DNA of 64,000 nucleotides from positions 1-64,000 of the forward strand of contig JAADEY010000018.1 in assembly GCA_013153145.1 (NCBI GenBank). The letters run 5' to 3'. Origin of the DNA: Thermoproteota archaeon (lineage in GTDB: Archaea > Thermoproteota > Thermoprotei_A > Sulfolobales > Pyrodictiaceae). Positions 12,731 to 21,749 of this stretch are shown here, in pieces. Numbering within the stretch: the first letter of the stretch is position 1; every line of letters starts with the position of its first letter. The translations under genes were made by a program, and so were the position numbers. Below the pieces are notes generated by a model. That model made no database searches, was not told the DNA's origin, and worked only from the letters and a program-made list of their open reading frames with translations.

Positions 12731-12906
12731 GCCCGTGGATTGGTGGGGTCTTCTGGGAGGGCTGGATAAACTTTATGGTCTGGGGTGGTGAGTGGCAAGC
12801 ATGGCCCCCGGTGATGTTAAGAGGGTCTCTTGAGTGGTGAAGAGAGCCGGAAAGGCTGAGGGGCTCTGATTGTGCTTTGATTCCTAGGTTGTGAGAATTT
12901 GAGGTG

Positions 12907-12978
12907 TGCCGCCGCGGGGATTCGAACCCCGGACCGCCCGGTCTTCAGCCGGGCGCTCTCCCGCTGAGCTACGGCGGC
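12907..12978 (-). tRNA. tRNA-Phe (anticodon GAA)
   Basis: Acceptor GCCGCCG (12978-12972) pairs with CGGCGGC (12914-12908), discriminator A at 12907; the CCA end is not encoded. Anticodon stem CCCGG/CCGGG with loop CTGAAGA gives GAA. T arm CGGGG-TTCGAAT-CCCCG. No intron. A taaaa-like stretch near 13010-13017 (minus strand aaaataacc) is a plausible TATA box. This tRNA is the substrate class for Taw3, encoded near 46.4 kb. Confidence 0.95.
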
Positions 12979-13052
12979 CTCCATTATTCGTGTTGGCGTG
13001 GCTCCAGGGGTTATTTTGGTTTTGTGGCTGTGGTAGTTCCGGTCTAGTGTGC

Positions 13053-14468
13053 ATGGGTTTTCGTCTTTCTCGGCTCTGTTTCTTCCCTGGCGGGGTTGTT
13101 GTGAGGCTTGTCTGTGTTGAGGAGGGCGAGGTAGGGGCTTTTGTGAGGCTTGTCTCTAGGCTTGGTTGTAGTTGTAGGGTTGTCTGTAGTGGGGGTGTAT
13201 GTAGGGTTTACCTGGAGTATGTACCCTCCTCGCTAAGGGTCTTGAAGGGCTTCGCCGCCTGGATAGGGTATCTCCTTGGCCGTTGCAGGCCCGTGGTGCC
13301 GGTGCCTGCGGCTAGTCTGCCTGGGCTGCCGGGCCTGCTTGGGGCGGTGCATGTCAGTGATGGCGGTGATGTGTGTTTTGAGCGTGTGGGGGGTGGTAGT
13401 GTATGCCTGCCCGTTGACGTCTTCTGGAGCCATATGGGGGTGTTCGGGTCTACCGGCTCGGGTAAGTCGACGACCACGGCGTATGTGGTCTCGAGGCTTG
13501 CGTCATGCGGAGTGGTTGGGGTAGTGTTTGACTGGCATGGTGAGTATAGGGGTCTCCTAGGGGCCTTCGGGTCAGGGTTCTACGAGTATAGCTATCCTGG
13601 CCTGCCGCGTCTCCCCCTCCTCCCAGGCGGAGATGTCGATGCAGCTGTTGATGTGTTTAGTGATGTGCTTGGGTTAAGCGATAACCAGGCCTTGTTGATG
13701 CTCGATCTCCTGGAGTCGATTAGGAGTTACTGCTTAACGGGTGAGTTGAGGGGTAGACTGGGGATCCTGCTCCAGCTCGGTGGAGGGCCTCCCAGAGCCC
13801 TTGACGATGTCTGCAGGGGTGGGGAGGGCTCGTTGAGGGGGTTTATGAGGCTCGTCATGGAGCTCTACAATAGGCTTTATGTCGTCGAGTCGAGGGGGGA
13901 GAAGGAGGCATGGGCGGCCCTCCTCCGCAGGCTTAGGATGGCTCTCCGCGAGCCCGGTCTCTTCAGCTTAGAGGCCGGCAGCTTGGAGGATGTAGTCCAG
14001 CTCCCCTCAGAGGGGATAGTGGTCTTCAACCTCTCGAGGATAAGGAGTGGGAGGAGCAGGGCACTCTACGCACTCCTCCTAGCCCGCCTACTCTACGAGG
14101 AAGCCTACCGCACCAACCGCCTAATGAACACAGTCTTGGTCTTCGAGGAGGCGCACAACCTAAACCCGCGCCGCGGCGGGATGACCGGCGGTGTGCTTAG
14201 CCGCCTGGCGGAGGAGGCACGGAAGTATAGACTCGGCATAATAGTTGTTGACCAGTCACCGGGCTTGCTGGACAAGTCGCTCCTCGCAAACCTAAACACT
14301 GTCATAATGCATCGAGTACACTCGAGCAGGGATCTCGAGGCACTAAAGAGTGTAGCCCCCTCCTCAAGGGAGCTCGAGAAGACGCTGCCAACGCTGAGGA
14401 CGGGCGAGGCAATACTGGCCTCAACGGCGCTCCCAGCACCCGTACCAATAATTATCAGGGCCAGGTAG
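13053..14468 (+). CDS. HerA/VirB4-like ATPase
   Basis: P-loop ATPase of the HerA-FtsK group, about 471 residues from the ATG at 13053. Walker A is GVFGSTGSGKSTTTAYVV (about residues 128-145), Walker B is VLVFEEAHNL (about 361-370), with the downstream VVDQSPGLLDKSLLANLNT typical of HerA-type motors. Family members translocate double-stranded DNA. The upstream frame stays open but crosses the antisense tRNA-Phe, so a longer start is not credible; GTG at 13101 is another candidate. No NurA, Mre11 or Rad50 is adjacent. The first half is markedly G/T-rich on this strand, giving many Val, Gly and Cys residues. Confidence 0.75.
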   Translation: MGFRLSRLCFFPGGVVVRLVCVEEGEVGAFVRLVSRLGCSCRVVCSGGVCRVYLEYVPSSLRVLKGFAAWIGYLLGRCRPVVPVPAASLPGLPGLLGAVHVSDGGDVCFERVGGGSVCLPVDVFWSHMGVFGSTGSGKSTTTAYVVSRLASCGVVGVVFDWHGEYRGLLGAFGSGFYEYSYPGLPRLPLLPGGDVDAAVDVFSDVLGLSDNQALLMLDLLESIRSYCLTGELRGRLGILLQLGGGPPRALDDVCRGGEGSLRGFMRLVMELYNRLYVVESRGEKEAWAALLRRLRMALREPGLFSLEAGSLEDVVQLPSEGIVVFNLSRIRSGRSRALYALLLARLLYEEAYRTNRLMNTVLVFEEAHNLNPRRGGMTGGVLSRLAEEARKYRLGIIVVDQSPGLLDKSLLANLNTVIMHRVHSSRDLEALKSVAPSSRELEKTLPTLRTGEAILASTALPAPVPIIIRAR

Positions 14469-14490
14469 GGGCCTCCCGCGGGAGAAGCGC

Positions 14491-15060
14491 TTGCCCACGC
14501 CCACCCCACTCCTAGTCTACCGGGTAGGCTACGTCGAGGAGCACGCCCTAGAATCACTCCTTGCAGGGCTCCGCTCGGCATACAAGAGCCACAAAGCAGT
14601 CTACGTCGGCGACATCGAGCCACCGGTCACAGCCTACAACTGGCGCAGGAGACAATACGACAGCACAACCTTGCTCCACACACTACTCAAGAAGACATCA
14701 CCTCACGCCCCAACACTATTCGTTGCAGGCGTCGACGCCTACGCAGACAACCTAAACTTCGTCTTCGGAGAAGCACTCCTCGGCCAGGGAGCAGCAATAG
14801 TATACACGCCGAGACTGAAGCCCGAATTCTACGGCGACGAGCCAAACCCGCTACTCTACATAGAACGCCTAATCAAAGAATCACTACACGAACTAGGACA
14901 CGCCTTCGGCCTCCGCCACTGCCCGACACCGGGATGCGTAATGAACTTCAGCAACTCAATCCTAGAGGTCGACGAGAAGAAGCCAGCATACTGCCAGAGA
15001 TGCGCCGAGATACTAGCCGAGAACGGCGTCCTGGTGAACGAGGAGTACATACTAGCCTAG
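14491..15060 (+). CDS. amzA: Archaemetzincin zinc metalloprotease
   Basis: A 189-residue metzincin-type peptidase, probably cytosolic. The zinc motif HELGHAFGLRHC (about residues 131-142) is followed by PTPGCVMNFSNS (the Met-turn region) and a CQRC pair near 168-171 that, with the Cys after the third His and the CVM Cys, forms the second zinc site characteristic of archaemetzincins. TTG start at 14491 after GGGAGAAG. Its last four bases overlap the convergent archease gene. The coding strand is A/C-rich, the opposite of the neighbouring minus-strand genes, so the bias follows the DNA strand rather than the genes. Confidence 0.93.
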   Translation: MPTPTPLLVYRVGYVEEHALESLLAGLRSAYKSHKAVYVGDIEPPVTAYNWRRRQYDSTTLLHTLLKKTSPHAPTLFVAGVDAYADNLNFVFGEALLGQGAAIVYTPRLKPEFYGDEPNPLLYIERLIKESLHELGHAFGLRHCPTPGCVMNFSNSILEVDEKKPAYCQRCAEILAENGVLVNEEYILA

Positions 15061-15500
15061 ATGTCAACGACGAACTGCACCATCCACAAGCCATCAAGCC
15101 TACGAATACACATCTGCGCGTAGGTAACAGCCTTAACAATAGTCCTATACTCATGCCTCTCGGGGTCGAACACCTCACCGCATCCCTCACCCTCAACAAC
15201 ATAGCCCCCATCAGTCTTCTCTATCCTATCAACACGGAACCTGGAGAACACCAGCCCCTCCGCGTCAAAGTAGAAGAGGAACTCCTCAACCCACCTATAC
15301 AACGCGTTCTCGAGATCAGTCCCCTCAACCCTCACACGCTTACAGACCCTCGGCTCAACCCTCGAAGTATCAGTAATCACCTCGAAGACGCCCCGAGCAG
15401 CATTAGCGAAGGCCTCCTCTAGGCTCCTCCCATAAGCCCTCACAAGCACATCAGCCGTGTGCTCGCAGAGCTCAAAGGGCTTAAACCCAGCCTCCCCCAT
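15057..15500 (-). CDS. Archease (tRNA ligase RtcB cofactor)
   Basis: 147 residues with the archease fold: FELCEHTADVLVRAYG near the start, SLEEAFANAARGVFEVI, LENALYRWVEEFLFYFDAEG in the middle and EYRTIVKAVTYAQM near 117-130. The conserved EHTAD and the EH-KAVT segment carry the acidic and His residues expected to bind Ca/metal. Archease speeds guanylylation of the RNA ligase RtcB, which joins tRNA exons and other RNAs. Placed near intron-bearing tRNA-Lys, which fits but does not prove a role in its maturation. Confidence 0.9.
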   Translation of the reverse strand: MGEAGFKPFELCEHTADVLVRAYGRSLEEAFANAARGVFEVITDTSRVEPRVCKRVRVEGTDLENALYRWVEEFLFYFDAEGLVFSRFRVDRIEKTDGGYVVEGEGCGEVFDPERHEYRTIVKAVTYAQMCIRRLDGLWMVQFVVDI

Positions 15501-15558
15501 ACAAGCCCCTAATAGTGTATGAGGCTACAAGCGATTATTAGCCTAATTCAAGTGGCTG

Positions 15559-15667
15559 TGGCGGGCCGGCCGGGATTCGAACCCGGGACTTCCGCCCACC
15601 ACGGCGCACGGCCGCGGAGGTCAACGGGTTAAAAGCCCGCCGCTCTGCCTGGCTGAGCTACCGGCCC
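15559..15667 (-). tRNA. tRNA-Lys (anticodon TTT) with insert in variable region
   Basis: Acceptor GGGCCGG (15667-15661) pairs with CCGGCCC (15569-15563), discriminator G at 15562, CCA encoded at 15561-15559. Anticodon stem GCGGG/CCCGT with loop CTTTTAA gives TTT. T arm CCGGG-TTCGAAT-CCCGG. Between the anticodon stem and T stem there are 37 bases (15623-15587) instead of about 5, so about 32 bases are extra and probably a non-canonical intron cut by the archaeal splicing endonuclease. Confidence 0.92.
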
Positions 15668-15705
15668 AGCCAAATGGGATGCTGTGGCAGAACCCCTCAT
15701 AAACC

Positions 15706-16317
15706 CTAACCCGCCAGTAGACCAGCCAGCCTCCTAGAAAGCCTAGACGCAACCCTACCAGCAGTGTAGAGAGGCTCCGGCACCCTACTATACAGCTGCA
15801 GGCTGCAGAGGAGCCTCGCAGCCTCCCCATAACTGCCTCCTACAACAGCAACATATAACTCCCTGCCCCTACCGCACACAAGCCTACGAAGAAGAGAATA
15901 CACAACCTCGACCCTCACAAACCGCTCCCGCCAGTCAACAAAATGCCTGCGGAGAGCCCACCCAATAGCATCAATATCGGGCCAATACATGTGAACAGAG
16001 GCTATAGGTACACGGAGCCTCCTCCAAGCCTCAACCAGATCAGCAACATTAAACCCTGCGAAGATAGGCGTGTCAACAACAACCAGGACGGGCTCTACGC
16101 CAAGCCCCTCCACAAGACTAACAAGGGAATCAGTAGCATCCACCCCATCAACCTCGACGAGCGAAAAGCCGAGCCTAACCGGAACCCAGCCCCACCCCTC
16201 ACACCTACAGTGAACGGCGCCACAGAGCACTGTGTACCTCCAACCCCTCTTAAAGAAGCCATCATCAACCCCTACCACGCAGTCTCCGCAGAACCCTTCC
16301 GAGCAGCGGATCAACAC
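15706..16317 (-). CDS. DUF99 (UPF0215) family protein
   Basis: About 203 residues. Family landmarks: VVGVDDGFFKRG near residues 14-25, DATDSLVSLVEGLGVEPVLVVVDTPIFAGFNVADL (about 60-94), with acidic residues suggesting a nuclease-like (endonuclease V-related) fold; the activity is unproven. The frame overlaps the end of cdc6 by 53 bases; GTG codons just before VGVDDG would shorten or remove the overlap. It follows cdc6 on the same strand and may be co-transcribed. The coding strand is extremely G/T-rich. Confidence 0.8.
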   Translation of the reverse strand: MLIRCSEGFCGDCVVGVDDGFFKRGWRYTVLCGAVHCRCEGWGWVPVRLGFSLVEVDGVDATDSLVSLVEGLGVEPVLVVVDTPIFAGFNVADLVEAWRRLRVPIASVHMYWPDIDAIGWALRRHFVDWRERFVRVEVVYSLLRRLVCGRGRELYVAVVGGSYGEAARLLCSLQLYSRVPEPLYTAGRVASRLSRRLAGLLAG

Positions 16318-17512
16318 TCAATGCCTCCACAACGGTATCGGGGTCAGCGCTGAGAGTAATAATCCTCGTCTTCCCGTAGCGCCCCCTACTCACAATCCTT
16401 GCATTGATAACCCCGAGCATGTCAAGTTCATTAATTATATCGCTCACCCTCCTCTGCGTGACCGGGTCAATACCTATCCGTTCAGCTACAAGCGAGTAGG
16501 CATTGTAGAGCTCACCCGTGGTCGTCGACTTGACACCCCTCCACCTAAGCAGTACGAGCGACAGGAGCACGATCCGAGCCTGCAGGGGGAGTGAGCGAAT
16601 CACCTCAAACACCCGATCCCTCTCAATAACATCCCACGCACGCTTAACATGCTCAACACTCACACTCGAAGCACCCTCCCTCTCAGCAAGCTCCCCAGCG
16701 ACACGCAGCAAGTCAAGCGCACGCCTCGCATCACCATGAACCCTCGCGGCAAGCGCAGCACAATACTCTATCACCCCAGGCTCCAGCACGCCGGGGTGGA
16801 AAGCCTTCTCAGCCCTCTCCCTAAGAATATCCTCAAGCTGCTCAGCGTTATACGGCCTAAACACAAGCTCCTCCTCACCAAGGCTACTACGCACACGGGC
16901 ATCAAGCATATCAACAAACTTCACGTCATTCGTAATACCCACAAGCGAGACCTGCATAGCCCCCCGCGGAAGCTCATAGCCAATCCTAGTCAACTTATAC
17001 AATAGGTCGTCACCCCTACGCTTAACAAGCCAATCAACCTCGTCGAGAACAACAATCAACACCCCCCTCCTCCTCACAAGCCCCCTCACAAGCCTAGCAT
17101 AGACCTCAGCCGTCGACAACCCAGTAAACGGCACCCTCACACCAATACTGGCAGCAATATCAGCCAAGACCTTGTAGGCAGTGTCACGCTGCCTCGTATT
17201 AACATAGGCATACAGCACGTTGACACCAATACTCCTCGCCTTAGCAACAAGCCTCCTCAACACATACAGCGTGACAGCAGTCTTCCCCGTACCCGTAAGC
17301 CCATAGATGAACACATTGCTCGGCCTAGAACCCTTCAAAGCCTGTGCAAGCACACTCCCAAGACTCCTAATCTCCTCCTCACGATGAGGAAGCCTATCAG
17401 GTATATAATCGGGGCTAAGCACATCACGATCCCTAAACACCCTAGACGCCATAACCCTCTCAAACACCTCATCAAGCACATCGCCAGACACGGCCAACAC
17501 CCACCCAGACAC
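16265..17512 (-). CDS. cdc6: Orc1/Cdc6 replication initiator
   Basis: AAA+ origin-binding and helicase-loading protein, 415 residues. Seen: DYIPDRLPHREEEI (family N-terminal motif), Walker A YGLTGTGKTAVT (about 69-80), Walker B VLIVVLDEVDWLV (about 146-158), sensor 1 LVGITNDVKFVD (about 184-195), sensor 2 HGDARRALDLLRVAG (about 254-268), and a C-terminal winged helix (TTGELYNAYSLVAERIG...QRRVSDIINELDMLGVI). The start is one of several GTG codons from 17512 inward. Archaeal origins often lie beside this gene; repeats in the upstream gap (17570-17632) are described separately. Confidence 0.95.
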   Translation of the reverse strand: MSGWVLAVSGDVLDEVFERVMASRVFRDRDVLSPDYIPDRLPHREEEIRSLGSVLAQALKGSRPSNVFIYGLTGTGKTAVTLYVLRRLVAKARSIGVNVLYAYVNTRQRDTAYKVLADIAASIGVRVPFTGLSTAEVYARLVRGLVRRRGVLIVVLDEVDWLVKRRGDDLLYKLTRIGYELPRGAMQVSLVGITNDVKFVDMLDARVRSSLGEEELVFRPYNAEQLEDILRERAEKAFHPGVLEPGVIEYCAALAARVHGDARRALDLLRVAGELAEREGASSVSVEHVKRAWDVIERDRVFEVIRSLPLQARIVLLSLVLLRWRGVKSTTTGELYNAYSLVAERIGIDPVTQRRVSDIINELDMLGVINARIVSRGRYGKTRIITLSADPDTVVEALSVDPLLGRVLRRLRGRG

Positions 17513-17635: not shown

Positions 17636-17712
<77 letters not shown>

Positions 17713-17801: not shown

Positions 17802-19052
17802 CTAGACACGGCCCAGGAGGGGGAGGTAGGTCGGCGAGACGCTCTGCTTGACCGGTCTCTCTGCATACCTGACCCTAGAACCCTTAGGGATCCTGCTATA
17901 GTTCCAGGAAGTATCTATCTTCAGGTCGTCGATCCTCAAGACCTTCGCGTGGCTCCCTATAGCATACTCGAACCTGAAGAGTCTAGGGTACCTCTGCTTA
18001 AGCCTCCTCAACACGCTCCTTATCTGGGGGCCGTCCCTGCCTACAAGGCAGCGCTCGTCGAGCGTGAGCTTGACGCTGACCCCTCTCCGCAGGAGGTTCT
18101 CTAGATCATCGATCGCCTCGGCGGTGGTGTATGCAGTTGTGACCTCAAGCACGTCGGCCGCCGCGAGGGCCAGGCTGCGGAGAGCGTAGCTCGTCACGAG
18201 TAGCCTAGCCTCTGTCCTCCAGGCGCCGATAGCTACGAGGAAGACCTTGAGCACGCAGGTGCTCGTCAGGAGCGGCTGGAGCACGCCCTCCCTGCACTCG
18301 TCAACCAGTATCGTGTCGCCGCAGACGTCAAGGCAGCTGCGGAGCCCCCGGACACCGGCCCCCGAGAGGACAGCCACCGTGTGCGGGTCGGGTGCCAGGC
18401 CGAGCTCCCTAAACACCTCAGCAACCCTCCCGCCAGCCTCAAAGCCCTCCGGGTGATCAACGGTATACGTGCCCATGATCCGTGCCAGCCCGGCCTCCGG
18501 AACCCCGCCGCCCTGCACGCTAAGCTCCGTTGCAAGCTCATACACTACATCAACGCCGCTGACGTCGACTATGCCCGCATAATATAGCCTCCTATTATGA
18601 TGCCTTATCGCGCCATACACCGGCCGCACAGCACCCCTAGAGCTGAGCGCCGAGGCCTCAGCGTAGAGGACATGAGCCAACGTATGGGCAGTAACGTAGC
18701 CGAAGTACTCGAAGAGCCTCCTCATCTCATCCCACTCGCCGACACCAAGCCTGGCCAGGATGCCGGCAACAAACTCCTTCAAGTCCCGGGAGGGCTTCTC
18801 GACGAGGTAGCGGTAAGCAGCATACTTAGCCAGCACGAGATCCCTCGCAAGCCTCCCGGAGCACCTAACCTCGCTGTTAAGCATTAGGTTTACAGCAAAG
18901 TCGGTGACAACGTCCTTAAAGAACACGATCAGAGCCGGCCCTATGCTGGTCGGGGCAGCGAATGCATAGCGGCTCAGCCATACCATGTACGGAATCCTTA
19001 CCCCCCAGTAGCCCGGCCACCTCGGGAGAGCTAGCATCCCAGCTGTGCTCAC
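17802..19052 (-). CDS. Uncharacterised protein with C-terminal phospholipase-D-like motif
   Basis: 416 residues, not recognised as a whole. The last 130 residues resemble a PLD-superfamily half: ARLLVTSYALRSLALAAADV, then RRGVSVKLTLDERCL, then the HKD-type motif SHAKVLRIDDLKIDTSWN (about residues 371-388; HxKx4D followed by SxN). PLD-like proteins are nucleases or phosphodiesterases; a single motif would require a dimer. The N-terminal 270 residues (FFKDVVTDFAVNLMLNSEV, GYVTAHTLAHVLYAEASA) match no family I know. GTG at 19052 lies 12 bases after GGGGAGGGGTG. The first 137 bases overlap the upstream ORF in another frame, so it is either coupled or the C-terminal half of one frameshifted gene. 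Confidence 0.6.
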   Translation of the reverse strand: MSTAGMLALPRWPGYWGVRIPYMVWLSRYAFAAPTSIGPALIVFFKDVVTDFAVNLMLNSEVRCSGRLARDLVLAKYAAYRYLVEKPSRDLKEFVAGILARLGVGEWDEMRRLFEYFGYVTAHTLAHVLYAEASALSSRGAVRPVYGAIRHHNRRLYYAGIVDVSGVDVVYELATELSVQGGGVPEAGLARIMGTYTVDHPEGFEAGGRVAEVFRELGLAPDPHTVAVLSGAGVRGLRSCLDVCGDTILVDECREGVLQPLLTSTCVLKVFLVAIGAWRTEARLLVTSYALRSLALAAADVLEVTTAYTTAEAIDDLENLLRRGVSVKLTLDERCLVGRDGPQIRSVLRRLKQRYPRLFRFEYAIGSHAKVLRIDDLKIDTSWNYSRIPKGSRVRYAERPVKQSVSPTYLPLLGRV

Positions 19053-20517
19053 GGCCCTGAGGCACCCCTCCCCACGCGGCTGCAGTGTATTGCTGGCGCA
19101 GTATGCTCCAGACTACTTGCACAATCCCCGAGCCTCCGGGCTCCAAACACTCTTCTACACCGTCTACGGCGTACTCGTTGACGGCGAGATATAGTTTGAG
19201 TATGCATCCAGCGTAATCCAGGCTAGAATAGTTAGCGTTTTCCGCTAGCATTTTAATAGTTCTGGAAACCATAGATGCTGGAACCTTACATGGATAGTGA
19301 TGCTTCCTGTAAGAAGTAATACAGGATAGATACGCGCCCCTATACCCTCTTCCCCTACCATGAAGCTCCTCCACAACCCCTCTATAAAGACGGTAGTCGA
19401 CAGCATCAATAAGTGGGATAAAGACAGCCGTGCTCCTCAAAACACCCAGCGCACCCTCACCCATGAGTGCTGCAACCCGGTTAAGCCTCTGCACACCCTC
19501 AAGGGCAACAAGCATGTCCCATTCCCCGAATATCCTCTTCAACTCCCTAAACCCCTCCTCCCTGGCACCCCAAGGCATATGAATAAACACCATTATCATC
19601 CTCCTCCAGTTAGATGTCAGCGCCTCAACGCCATCGGCAACACTCCGCACCCCGCCACCACAGATTGTTGAGGCTGCATCCAAGCCGCCGTAGAGATAGT
19701 TACCTGCAACAACAACCCTCATACGCCCCCCAGCAACCCTCCTGGCAATACTGACAAGCGCGGCGACATGCCTCAAGCCCCATCCGTCAAGAGCCTCGGA
19801 GCCAGTGACAAGCAGGAGCCTCTTACCCCGTGCAGCTCCTCCACCAGAGAGCAGCTCCTCTGCGAGAGACGCCGGGTCGTAGACATCTACTCCAAGCCGC
19901 CCCCTCACAGACCCGTTACAGTCCAGGATCAGTGTATCCTCCGAATATACATGGGCGAGGATAGCAATCACGGTGTCAAGCCTCACACCTGGAGGCGGCG
20001 TAAGTGCTGCGTCAATACCCTCACGTATAGCCTTCAGCGTTGAGGCTAGGAGGACCGCCTCGGCTGCGCGCAGCCCACAGCGCCCCATAGAGGATAATGC
20101 TTCCTCAACCCTTCCACGATAGCCCTCAAGGAGTCTACACAGTAGCCTCCCGAGCCTACTATCGCTGCAAACCGATATGCACTCGTCATCTAGGTCTACT
20201 ACTGGTATCTTGGCGACATAGTATTCGACGCCCTTGGATGCCTCGAGGGCCCTCGAGGCGAGGTCCGCGATTATACTCCTGCATACTCCATCCCTGCACT
20301 CAATGTATCCCTCCTCTTCCAGCTCCCTCAAGATCCTGCGGTGCATCGGTGCTCGGAGGCTGTGCAGCTTATTCAGCCTGATCCAGGTGGGTGGCTTATC
20401 CAGCCTGCATAGTTGTTCATCTCTGCAGGCCTGGTGTTCGGGGCCTGCGAGGGGGTGTCCGTTCAGCTCTAGTTCTAAGCCGGCAAATTCGCCCAGAACG
20501 AGCTCTGCTGTATGCAT
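18916..20517 (-). CDS. Uncharacterised protein, partner of the PLD-like ORF
   Basis: 533 residues, not recognised. Residues about 58-83 look like a winged-helix segment (HRRILRELEEEGYIECRDGVC). The middle has alternating strands and helices of Rossmann/P-loop character (TLILDCNGSVRG, KRLLLVTGSEALDGWG, MRVVVAGNYLYG, RMIMVFIHMPWG, WDMLVALEGVQRL) but no Walker A that I can see. ATG start at 20517 after GAGGTGAG. Coding character seems to fade near residue 485; the last 45 residues, in the overlap with the PLD-like ORF, read like an out-of-frame translation. A shift of one base near the G-rich run at 19064-19077 would join both ORFs. Confidence 0.6.
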   Translation of the reverse strand: MHTAELVLGEFAGLELELNGHPLAGPEHQACRDEQLCRLDKPPTWIRLNKLHSLRAPMHRRILRELEEEGYIECRDGVCRSIIADLASRALEASKGVEYYVAKIPVVDLDDECISVCSDSRLGRLLCRLLEGYRGRVEEALSSMGRCGLRAAEAVLLASTLKAIREGIDAALTPPPGVRLDTVIAILAHVYSEDTLILDCNGSVRGRLGVDVYDPASLAEELLSGGGAARGKRLLLVTGSEALDGWGLRHVAALVSIARRVAGGRMRVVVAGNYLYGGLDAASTICGGGVRSVADGVEALTSNWRRMIMVFIHMPWGAREEGFRELKRIFGEWDMLVALEGVQRLNRVAALMGEGALGVLRSTAVFIPLIDAVDYRLYRGVVEELHGRGRGYRGAYLSCITSYRKHHYPCKVPASMVSRTIKMLAENANYSSLDYAGCILKLYLAVNEYAVDGVEECLEPGGSGIVQVVWSILRQQYTAAAWGGVPQGREHSWDASSPEVAGLLGGKDSVHGMAEPLCIRCPDQHRAGSDRVL

Positions 20518-20556
20518 ACCTCACCTCTCGGCATGTGGGGGGCAGCGTCTACTAGC

Positions 20557-20615: not shown

Positions 20616-21749
20616 TTAGGAAAATAGATCAAGCGGTAGACCCGTCAATACTCTTGGCCCACGTGCAGTAACAAGCACCATCTCTTCAAGCCTGGCGCCG
20701 AGCCCCTGAGACTCTATGTAGACGCCGGGCTCTATGGTGACAACCATACCCTCCTCTACGACATCGCTGCTCGCCGGGCCGAGACGCGGATATTCGTGAA
20801 CCTCGAGGCCAACGCCGTGGCCGAGGGAGTGTATAAAGTACTTTGCAAGTCCATGCTTCTCCAGCTCCCTTCTTGCAGCCTCGTCGACGGCAGAGGCTTT
20901 AACTCCGGGCTCCAGCCGCTCCAGGGCGGCGTTGATAGCGTCTACCAAGGCCTCAATGATGGCGCGGTAGTCGGGGCTGGGTGAGGGATACATGAATGAT
21001 CTAGTCATATCACTGCAGTATCCACCGACACGTGCACCGGCATCAATAACCACGGGCGTATTCAGCCTAAGATACCTCCTAGGAGACGGCTTCGCATGCG
21101 GATAGACGGTATTAGCTCCGAAGGCTATGATGGAGGGGAAGGCGTAGTCCTCTGCACCCCCCATCCTCATGCCGTACTCGAGGGCGGCGGCTGCCTCGAC
21201 CTCGCTGAGGAGATACCCCTCCTGGATCTCGTCAACCATGAACCGGAAGCCCTTCTCAGTGGCCTCTATAGCCCTCTTCATCAACTCGAGCTCCCACCAC
21301 TCCTTCACAGCCCTCCACTTCTCAACACTGATCCGCTTGAACCTCCTCCTGGAGCCAGCACCAAGCTTCTCGGCGGACTCCAGGCCGAGGCTATCGTAGA
21401 GTATGAGGCCCTCGGGTAGTAGCGTGTTGAGAGCGTCAACCACGCCCCTAGCCTTTACAACCCTCCCCTCCAGGTGGAAGATGTCGGGCCTACTCGTGTA
21501 CACCACAACCTCCACGGAGCCGGCCAAGCCGTTCTCGGCGACAACGTCGAGAGCCTGCCGCCTAAGGAGGGGAGGCACCAGTAGAAGCACCTCCCCGCTA
21601 CGCAGGGCGAGGAGGACGCCGGCATCATAGCCGGTGAAGTACGCCACATTAGCCGGCCTACTGACCACTGCAGCCTCAGCATTCTCGGCGAACACAGCCT
21701 CCCTCAGCTTCTCAACCCTCTTAACCAGGTGCTGACCCAGCAAGGCCAA
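20616..21749 (-). CDS. pepQ: M24 family aminopeptidase (Xaa-Pro dipeptidase type)
   Basis: 377 residues, cytosolic pita-bread metallopeptidase. The N-terminal creatinase-like domain (AAVVSRPANVAYFTGYDAGV) precedes the catalytic domain. Metal ligands are visible: Asp in VVIDAGARVGGY, Asp in CSDMTRSF, His in HSLGHGVGLEVHE, Glu in VVTIEPGVY and Glu in ARLEEMVLV. Such enzymes release the N-terminal residue before proline. The TTG at 21749 opens MALLGQHL. The upstream SLOG gene ends 26 bases before it, so the two may be co-transcribed. Confidence 0.9.
   Translation of the reverse strand: MALLGQHLVKRVEKLREAVFAENAEAAVVSRPANVAYFTGYDAGVLLALRSGEVLLLVPPLLRRQALDVVAENGLAGSVEVVVYTSRPDIFHLEGRVVKARGVVDALNTLLPEGLILYDSLGLESAEKLGAGSRRRFKRISVEKWRAVKEWWELELMKRAIEATEKGFRFMVDEIQEGYLLSEVEAAAALEYGMRMGGAEDYAFPSIIAFGANTVYPHAKPSPRRYLRLNTPVVIDAGARVGGYCSDMTRSFMYPSPSPDYRAIIEALVDAINAALERLEPGVKASAVDEAARRELEKHGLAKYFIHSLGHGVGLEVHEYPRLGPASSDVVEEGMVVTIEPGVYIESQGLGARLEEMVLVTARGPRVLTGLPLDLFS

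Follow-up and report, generated by a model that had tools for sequence, protein, structure and literature searches.

Locus and coding frames

The DNA analysed here (the window) is a stretch of 64,000 nucleotides of contig JAADEY010000018.1 from a Thermoproteota archaeon of the Pyrodictiaceae. At the coordinates and lengths reported in the first-pass annotation, two minus-strand ORFs lie side by side: ORF1 (533 aa, 18916..20517) and ORF2 (416 aa, 17802..19052), with a frame overlap of 137 nt. ORF1 is a helicase-position protein with a putative YprA-type helicase N-terminal region and no recognisable ATPase motifs, and ORF2 corresponds to a DUF1998-PLD fusion protein reduced to its C-terminal half. 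On one side the pair is bordered by the neighbours named from the start, a tRNA gene, tRNA-Ala(CGC) (17636-17712, plus strand, 90 bp from the ORF2 end), and a Pfam-confirmed Cdc6 (16265-17512, minus strand). An M24 peptidase (20616-21749, minus strand) flanks it on the other.

At 59% GC the chance of an open random frame is ~1e-8 for ORF1 and 7e-7 for ORF2, and the frames are therefore not due to chance. The annotated frame was the top scorer of the six in both cases. ORF2 resembles the other genes of the window (codon bias 0.37 bits/codon, GC3 0.75), whereas codon bias is weak in ORF1 (0.05 bits/codon, GC3 0.57), although its score still exceeds those of the neighbours cdc6 and Endo_dU. Codon adaptation in the confirmed genes HerA, Endo_dU and cdc6 (12900-17500) is unusually low by the standard of the other window genes. 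The mechanical start of the HerA-type ATPase ORF (DUF87; 12906-14468, plus strand) falls inside an opposite-strand tRNA-Phe gene, and its true start is probably further in.

The pair had been credited with its own promoter-like element. By eye, a CTTATTA (20565-20559) is visible 5' of ORF1, and a Shine-Dalgarno-like GAGGTGAGG (20519..20527, minus strand) stands directly 5' of its ATG. A scan with a sigma-70 model, which is not applicable to archaea, scored at chance level.

Integration into the tRNA-Ala gene was considered and rejected. No second copy of the tRNA-Ala 3'-end repeat was found near ORF1. The sole other copy lies inside another tRNA (position 15560, 3 mismatches), and there is thus no attachment-site pair. 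That second match is explained by a tRNA-Lys(TTT) gene (15559-15667, minus strand) with a 23-nt intron, which ARAGORN detects with introns allowed and misses in a default scan. Dating by synteny gave no result either: in relatives whose contigs are complete, cdc6 and the M24 peptidase are far apart, which leaves no definable empty site.

ORF2 and the DUF1998-PLD family

Sequence comparison assigns ORF2, in truncated form, to a patchily distributed archaeal DUF1998-PLD family. Residues 41-412 are collinear with family columns 356-827 (hhalign, E 1.9e-25), so that homology runs through both the DUF1998 and the PLD part, and the family profile scored 128.6 bits against ORF2 in hmmsearch. Full-length family proteins have 784-976 aa and ORF2 matches their C-terminal half; the ~350 N-terminal residues of the family, including a conserved CPxC/C motif, are a gap in ORF2. 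Neither ORF1 nor ORF2 gave anything above threshold against Pfam and NCBIfam. For ORF2, Pfam gave a sub-threshold PLD hint only and no DUF1998 match.

The PLD-fold nuclease domain occupies aa 280-415 (17808..18215, minus strand). The best PADLOC match of ORF2 is DrmC, the PLD nuclease of DISARM (E 3.9e-5), and in a fold search the domain matched the PLD folds of NucT, Nuc, NgoAVII, SauUSI and BfiI (Z ~8-11). The HKD-type motif SHAKVLRIDDLKIDTSWN noted earlier at the ORF2 end (17901..17954, minus strand) is present, and the alignment places H368, K370 and N384 in it. Matches of ORF2 to MkoB and MkoC (Mokosh) were weak and due to the PLD domain only; this assignment was rejected.

Upstream of the PLD domain, aa 12-276 (18225..19019, minus strand) match the DUF1998 part of MrfA/YprA in structure comparison (6znp_A residues 571-749: Z 7.7, rmsd 4.2, 141 aligned). 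The ORF2 model is confident in the PLD part only, with low confidence over aa 12-276, and the Z score is below the caution line of the tool (8); the match was therefore counted only jointly with the sequence evidence. Relative to DrmB, the DUF1998 protein of DISARM, ORF2 thus has the MrfA-region match and the Cys/His residues and lacks the Pfam DUF1998 match and the N-terminal part.

In 12 intact sequences 29 alignment columns are at least 90% conserved. Of these, 13 fall in ORF2 gaps, and ORF2 keeps 11 of the 16 that are aligned, including H123 and H127 (HxxxH), C240, C244, C253, H368, K370 and N384. The three cysteines (18294..18335, minus strand) are the remnant of the DUF1998 zinc cluster. 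A four-cysteine cluster is given as the DUF1998 signature in passages of PMC12458937 and PMC9142583. This signature (C-x3-C-x2-C, then C) is complete in the distant members G204, G282 and Methanocaldococcus, while ORF2 and most Desulfurococcales members have three of the four cysteines.

Gene set of the intact relatives

Sixteen loci were examined (L004, L014-L018, L032, L048-L055, L059), 15 from Thermoproteota genomes, with some near-duplicates, and one from a Methanocaldococcus MAG. G105 and G109 are near-identical and do not count as independent. In 14 of the 16 loci a YprA-type helicase is either fused to the DUF1998-PLD gene or encoded directly upstream of it in the same orientation; in the remaining two (G109, G394) the contig end cuts the PLD gene. 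Helicase and DUF1998-PLD form a single ORF in G204 and G282 (1677 and 1593 aa; L054, L055). The ORF1-ORF2 order reproduces this arrangement of helicase, then DUF1998-PLD, on one strand.

Fourteen of the 16 loci have an N6/N4-type methyltransferase next to the pair. In G067 it is on another contig, and G017 has no convincing one. Most loci add a protein of ~405-473 aa, which had no family match where scanned. The full archaeal set (helicase, DUF1998-PLD, methyltransferase and the ~405-473 aa protein) is present at L015, L016, L048, L054, L055 and L059. At L015 (11968-13318, plus strand) and L016 (312-2208, minus strand) the methyltransferase end is joined by a pair consisting of an AAA/OLD-like ATPase (a likeness seen by eye) and a ~145-aa protein. 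At L048 (3-5730, minus strand), the G291 copy has two large genes next to it, for an 891-aa protein and for a 1021-aa protein that matches a methyltransferase profile (3.7e-14); these may form a second defence operon.

The partner helicases contain Pfam DEAD and Helicase_C domains and have a YprA/MrfA-like SF2 core. In a profile search against PDB the best solved relative of the helicase family was YprA/MrfA (6znp, E 5.1e-19). PADLOC places the family near DpdJ and DrmA, and none of nine proteins scanned against NCBIfam reached a curated cut-off. For these reasons the parent system is described as DISARM-like, of the YprA family, and left outside the named classes.

These results change the first view of the locus, that of an unrecognised module whose proteins belong to no nameable family: ORF2 falls in the DUF1998-PLD family, and ORF1 has the place of a YprA-type helicase together with an N-terminal match to it. 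Neither homology is to a housekeeping family. The likeness to defence systems that pair a PLD nuclease with a large partner holds for the relatives, whose loci have just such a pair.

ORF1, the helicase-position protein

ORF1 occupies the place of the helicase in the gene order of the relatives, and sequence comparison indicates that it carries the helicase N-terminal region. Residues 31-177 (19987..20427, minus strand) are significantly similar to helicase residues 30-197: the hhalign score of 38 compares with a maximum of 21.5 in shuffled sequences (0/100 as good), with a low probability of 30% at E 0.0005, and a PSSM of the 13-row helicase profile placed aa 35-177 at Z 8-9.5 above shuffles. 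In pairwise comparison, aa 1-180 were at chance level against the expected nearest relatives (G067, G017), and only G552 stood out (Z 4.2). The match stops at the Walker A position, where ORF1 has PPPG instead of APTGxGKT. The conserved DExH columns are a gap in ORF1, and no DExH box appears in the alignments. The ATPase motifs of an SF2 helicase such as DrmA are accordingly absent.

The remainder of ORF1 is harder to place. For residues 178-533 nothing significant was found in any part of the helicase (Z up to 2.3), and nothing in Pfam, NCBIfam or PDB sequences. The AlphaFold model of ORF1 is too poor to use (pLDDT 34), so it gives no confirmation of the winged-helix-like stretch and the Rossmann-like core first suggested for this protein. 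ORF1 could thus be a different protein, in which a helicase-type N-terminal region is joined to an unrelated domain and which serves as a new partner of the PLD nuclease. This is improbable: the gene position of ORF1 is exactly that of the helicase, its helicase match extends as far as the Walker A position, and beyond aa 178 the best match is at RecA2, weak but in the correct order (2/100 shuffles as good). The rest of ORF1 is probably, though not provably, an eroded helicase core. A reading of ORF1 as a full-length shrunken helicase was dropped, as two alignments conflict beyond aa ~180 and shuffling tests back neither of them there.

Distribution and host genome

ORF2 homologues were found in 10 of the 214 genomes of the order (E up to 0.01, own genome counted). 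Three of these (G066, G080, G170; E 7e-4 to 7e-3) were discounted as chance matches; their stretches are without a helicase/DUF1998-PLD gene pair, and the G080 match is in a 257-aa frame. With the G108 protein as the query, 8 of 229 genomes of the class were found, and with the family profile 10 of 398 genomes drawn from the phylum (own genome counted in both). A scan of GTDB contigs returned four loci, two from Desulfurococcales MAGs and one each from a Thermoproteota and a Methanocaldococcus MAG; to judge by length and gene order, the Desulfurococcales and Thermoproteota contigs are the same as G108, G114 and G105.

The ORF1-ORF2 pair as such was not seen in the other 213 genomes of the order or in any other genome searched. 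A repeated co-occurrence of the pair, which would have supported a system, is therefore lacking; it is the full-size version that recurs. In searches with short exact patterns or single sequences, which distant relatives would escape, GTDB genome contigs yielded no close relative of ORF2 and IMG/VR none of ORF1 or ORF2; ORF2 was not found in plasmids and phages, nor the intact family in IMG/VR.

The host genome assembly (G000) consists of 47 contigs and is 79% complete. Neither an intact helicase of the family nor a family methyltransferase was found in it, and no methyltransferase, a component of DISARM, lies at the ORF1-ORF2 locus. The same searches recovered the positive controls G108, G114, G055 and G067.

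The fragmented state of the assembly, and the single ORF that helicase and DUF1998-PLD form in G204 and G282, could suggest that the pair is a chimeric or error-bearing version of an intact copy, for example with a frame error at the ORF1/ORF2 overlap. Such an artefact is very improbable. A base error cannot delete the ATPase motifs and the ~350 residues missing from ORF2, and the ORF2 start region is already aligned with the family (LPR at aa 9-11).

Origin and possible function

Phylogenetic analysis of the C-terminal part makes G067 the sister of ORF2 and places ORF2 within the intact systems (support 99/97); the ORF2 branch is long, and both ORF2 and G067 deviate in composition. Because of this nesting, the short form of ORF2 was most likely derived by loss and is not primitive.

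By analogy with DrmAB and MrfA, the ATP-driven helicase of the parent system with its DUF1998 'canopy' would sense and translocate foreign DNA, the fused single-HKD PLD domain would cut it and the methyltransferase would mark self. According to PMC9142583, DISARM depends on ATP hydrolysis by DrmA and can do without DrmC, and the role proposed for DUF1998 is that of an allosteric hinge. The helicase gene would persist in the window as ORF1, with the N-terminal region kept and the ATPase motifs lost, and the DUF1998-PLD gene as ORF2, with zinc-site and catalytic residues kept and the N-terminal ~350 residues lost. With ORF1 ATP-dead, the window version would therefore not translocate. If made, the pair would be a DUF1998-controlled PLD nuclease without a motor: ORF2 might act as an ATP-independent, probably dimeric PLD nuclease, and ORF1 might hold it on DNA or keep it in check.

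The preferred interpretation, which we consider about evenly balanced between right and wrong, is that the pair is a derived, reduced DISARM-like (YprA-family) module, a nuclease with an ATPase-dead helicase-like partner, probably still made. Whereas homology, truncation, retained residues and gene position can be read from the sequences, we infer that the proteins are expressed, assemble into a complex and have nuclease activity, and likewise their biological role. Long-open frames, intact active-site and zinc residues and the codon bias of ORF2 favour a protein that is still used. In simulated neutral decay at 0.2 substitutions/site (indels ignored), ORF1 stayed open in 0 of 200 runs and ORF2 in ~1% of 200, and ORF1 is open despite having diverged almost beyond recognition.

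A PLD nuclease without motor and methyltransferase may also be functionless. In that case deletions wrecked the system, and ORF1 and ORF2 are leftovers, open by luck. The loss of all ATPase motifs and several hundred residues, the missing methyltransferase, the failure to see the pair in any other genome searched, the weak codon bias of ORF1 and the long overlap between the ORFs are as a decaying remnant would have them. Against this, the two frames run for 949 codons without a stop, ORF2 is ordinary in codon bias and retains the catalytic and zinc residues, and a Shine-Dalgarno-like site precedes ORF1. Decay is the strongest competitor, though we consider it less probable than the reduced module; the pair is known from one incomplete genome only.

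A further-reaching proposal is more doubtful still: that the intact loci are a distinct, unnamed YprA-family class of restriction-like defence in hyperthermophilic archaea, with the window copy as a two-protein, ATP-independent nuclease module, free of motor and methyltransferase, kept under selection. The parent gene set, to which none of the models tried gives a name, may well be a more interesting find than the pair itself, and it widens the catalogue of YprA-family defence systems. The one-chain archaeal proteins make the coupling of DUF1998 and PLD directly testable, and the window pair would be a natural minimal version without the motor.

Comparison with known systems

In literature on DISARM, ARMADA, DUF1998, DUF1156 and DrmB/DrmC the archaeal DUF1998-PLD arrangement was not found described, although the tables of PMC12458937 may include it. 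DISARM (DrmA-DrmB-DrmC plus DrmM) likewise combines the genes of a helicase, a DUF1998 protein and a PLD nuclease, and a methyltransferase gene is shared with it by the intact archaeal relatives. In contrast to DISARM, DUF1998 and PLD are one protein in the archaeal family, and the archaeal methyltransferase resembles DUF1156/type II enzymes, with no DrmM among the matches listed. In the window copy, moreover, there are no ATPase motifs and no methyltransferase, and the DUF1998 protein is without its N-terminal half.

MrfA/YprA (6znp) is both the best solved relative of the partner helicase and a match to ORF2 aa 12-276, but MrfA combines helicase core and DUF1998 in a single chain, and a PLD match is not reported for it. 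DpdJ, the helicase of the Dpd system (whose PLD protein is DpdK), is the top-scoring match of several intact archaeal helicases. However, the archaeal family has the DUF1998 zinc cysteines, which canonical Dpd has lost according to the portion of PMC12458937 consulted. ARMADA, BRIGADE and TALON share the YprA helicase superfamily and are defence-associated; the same preprint (PMC12458937) describes ARMADA helicases as bearing a C-terminal Vsr nuclease, with BrxHII and PglX genes as their companions. Among PLD restriction nucleases, BfiI, the NgoAVII R protein and SauUSI have the fold of ORF2 aa 280-415, but at low identity (12-16%) and with other companion domains.
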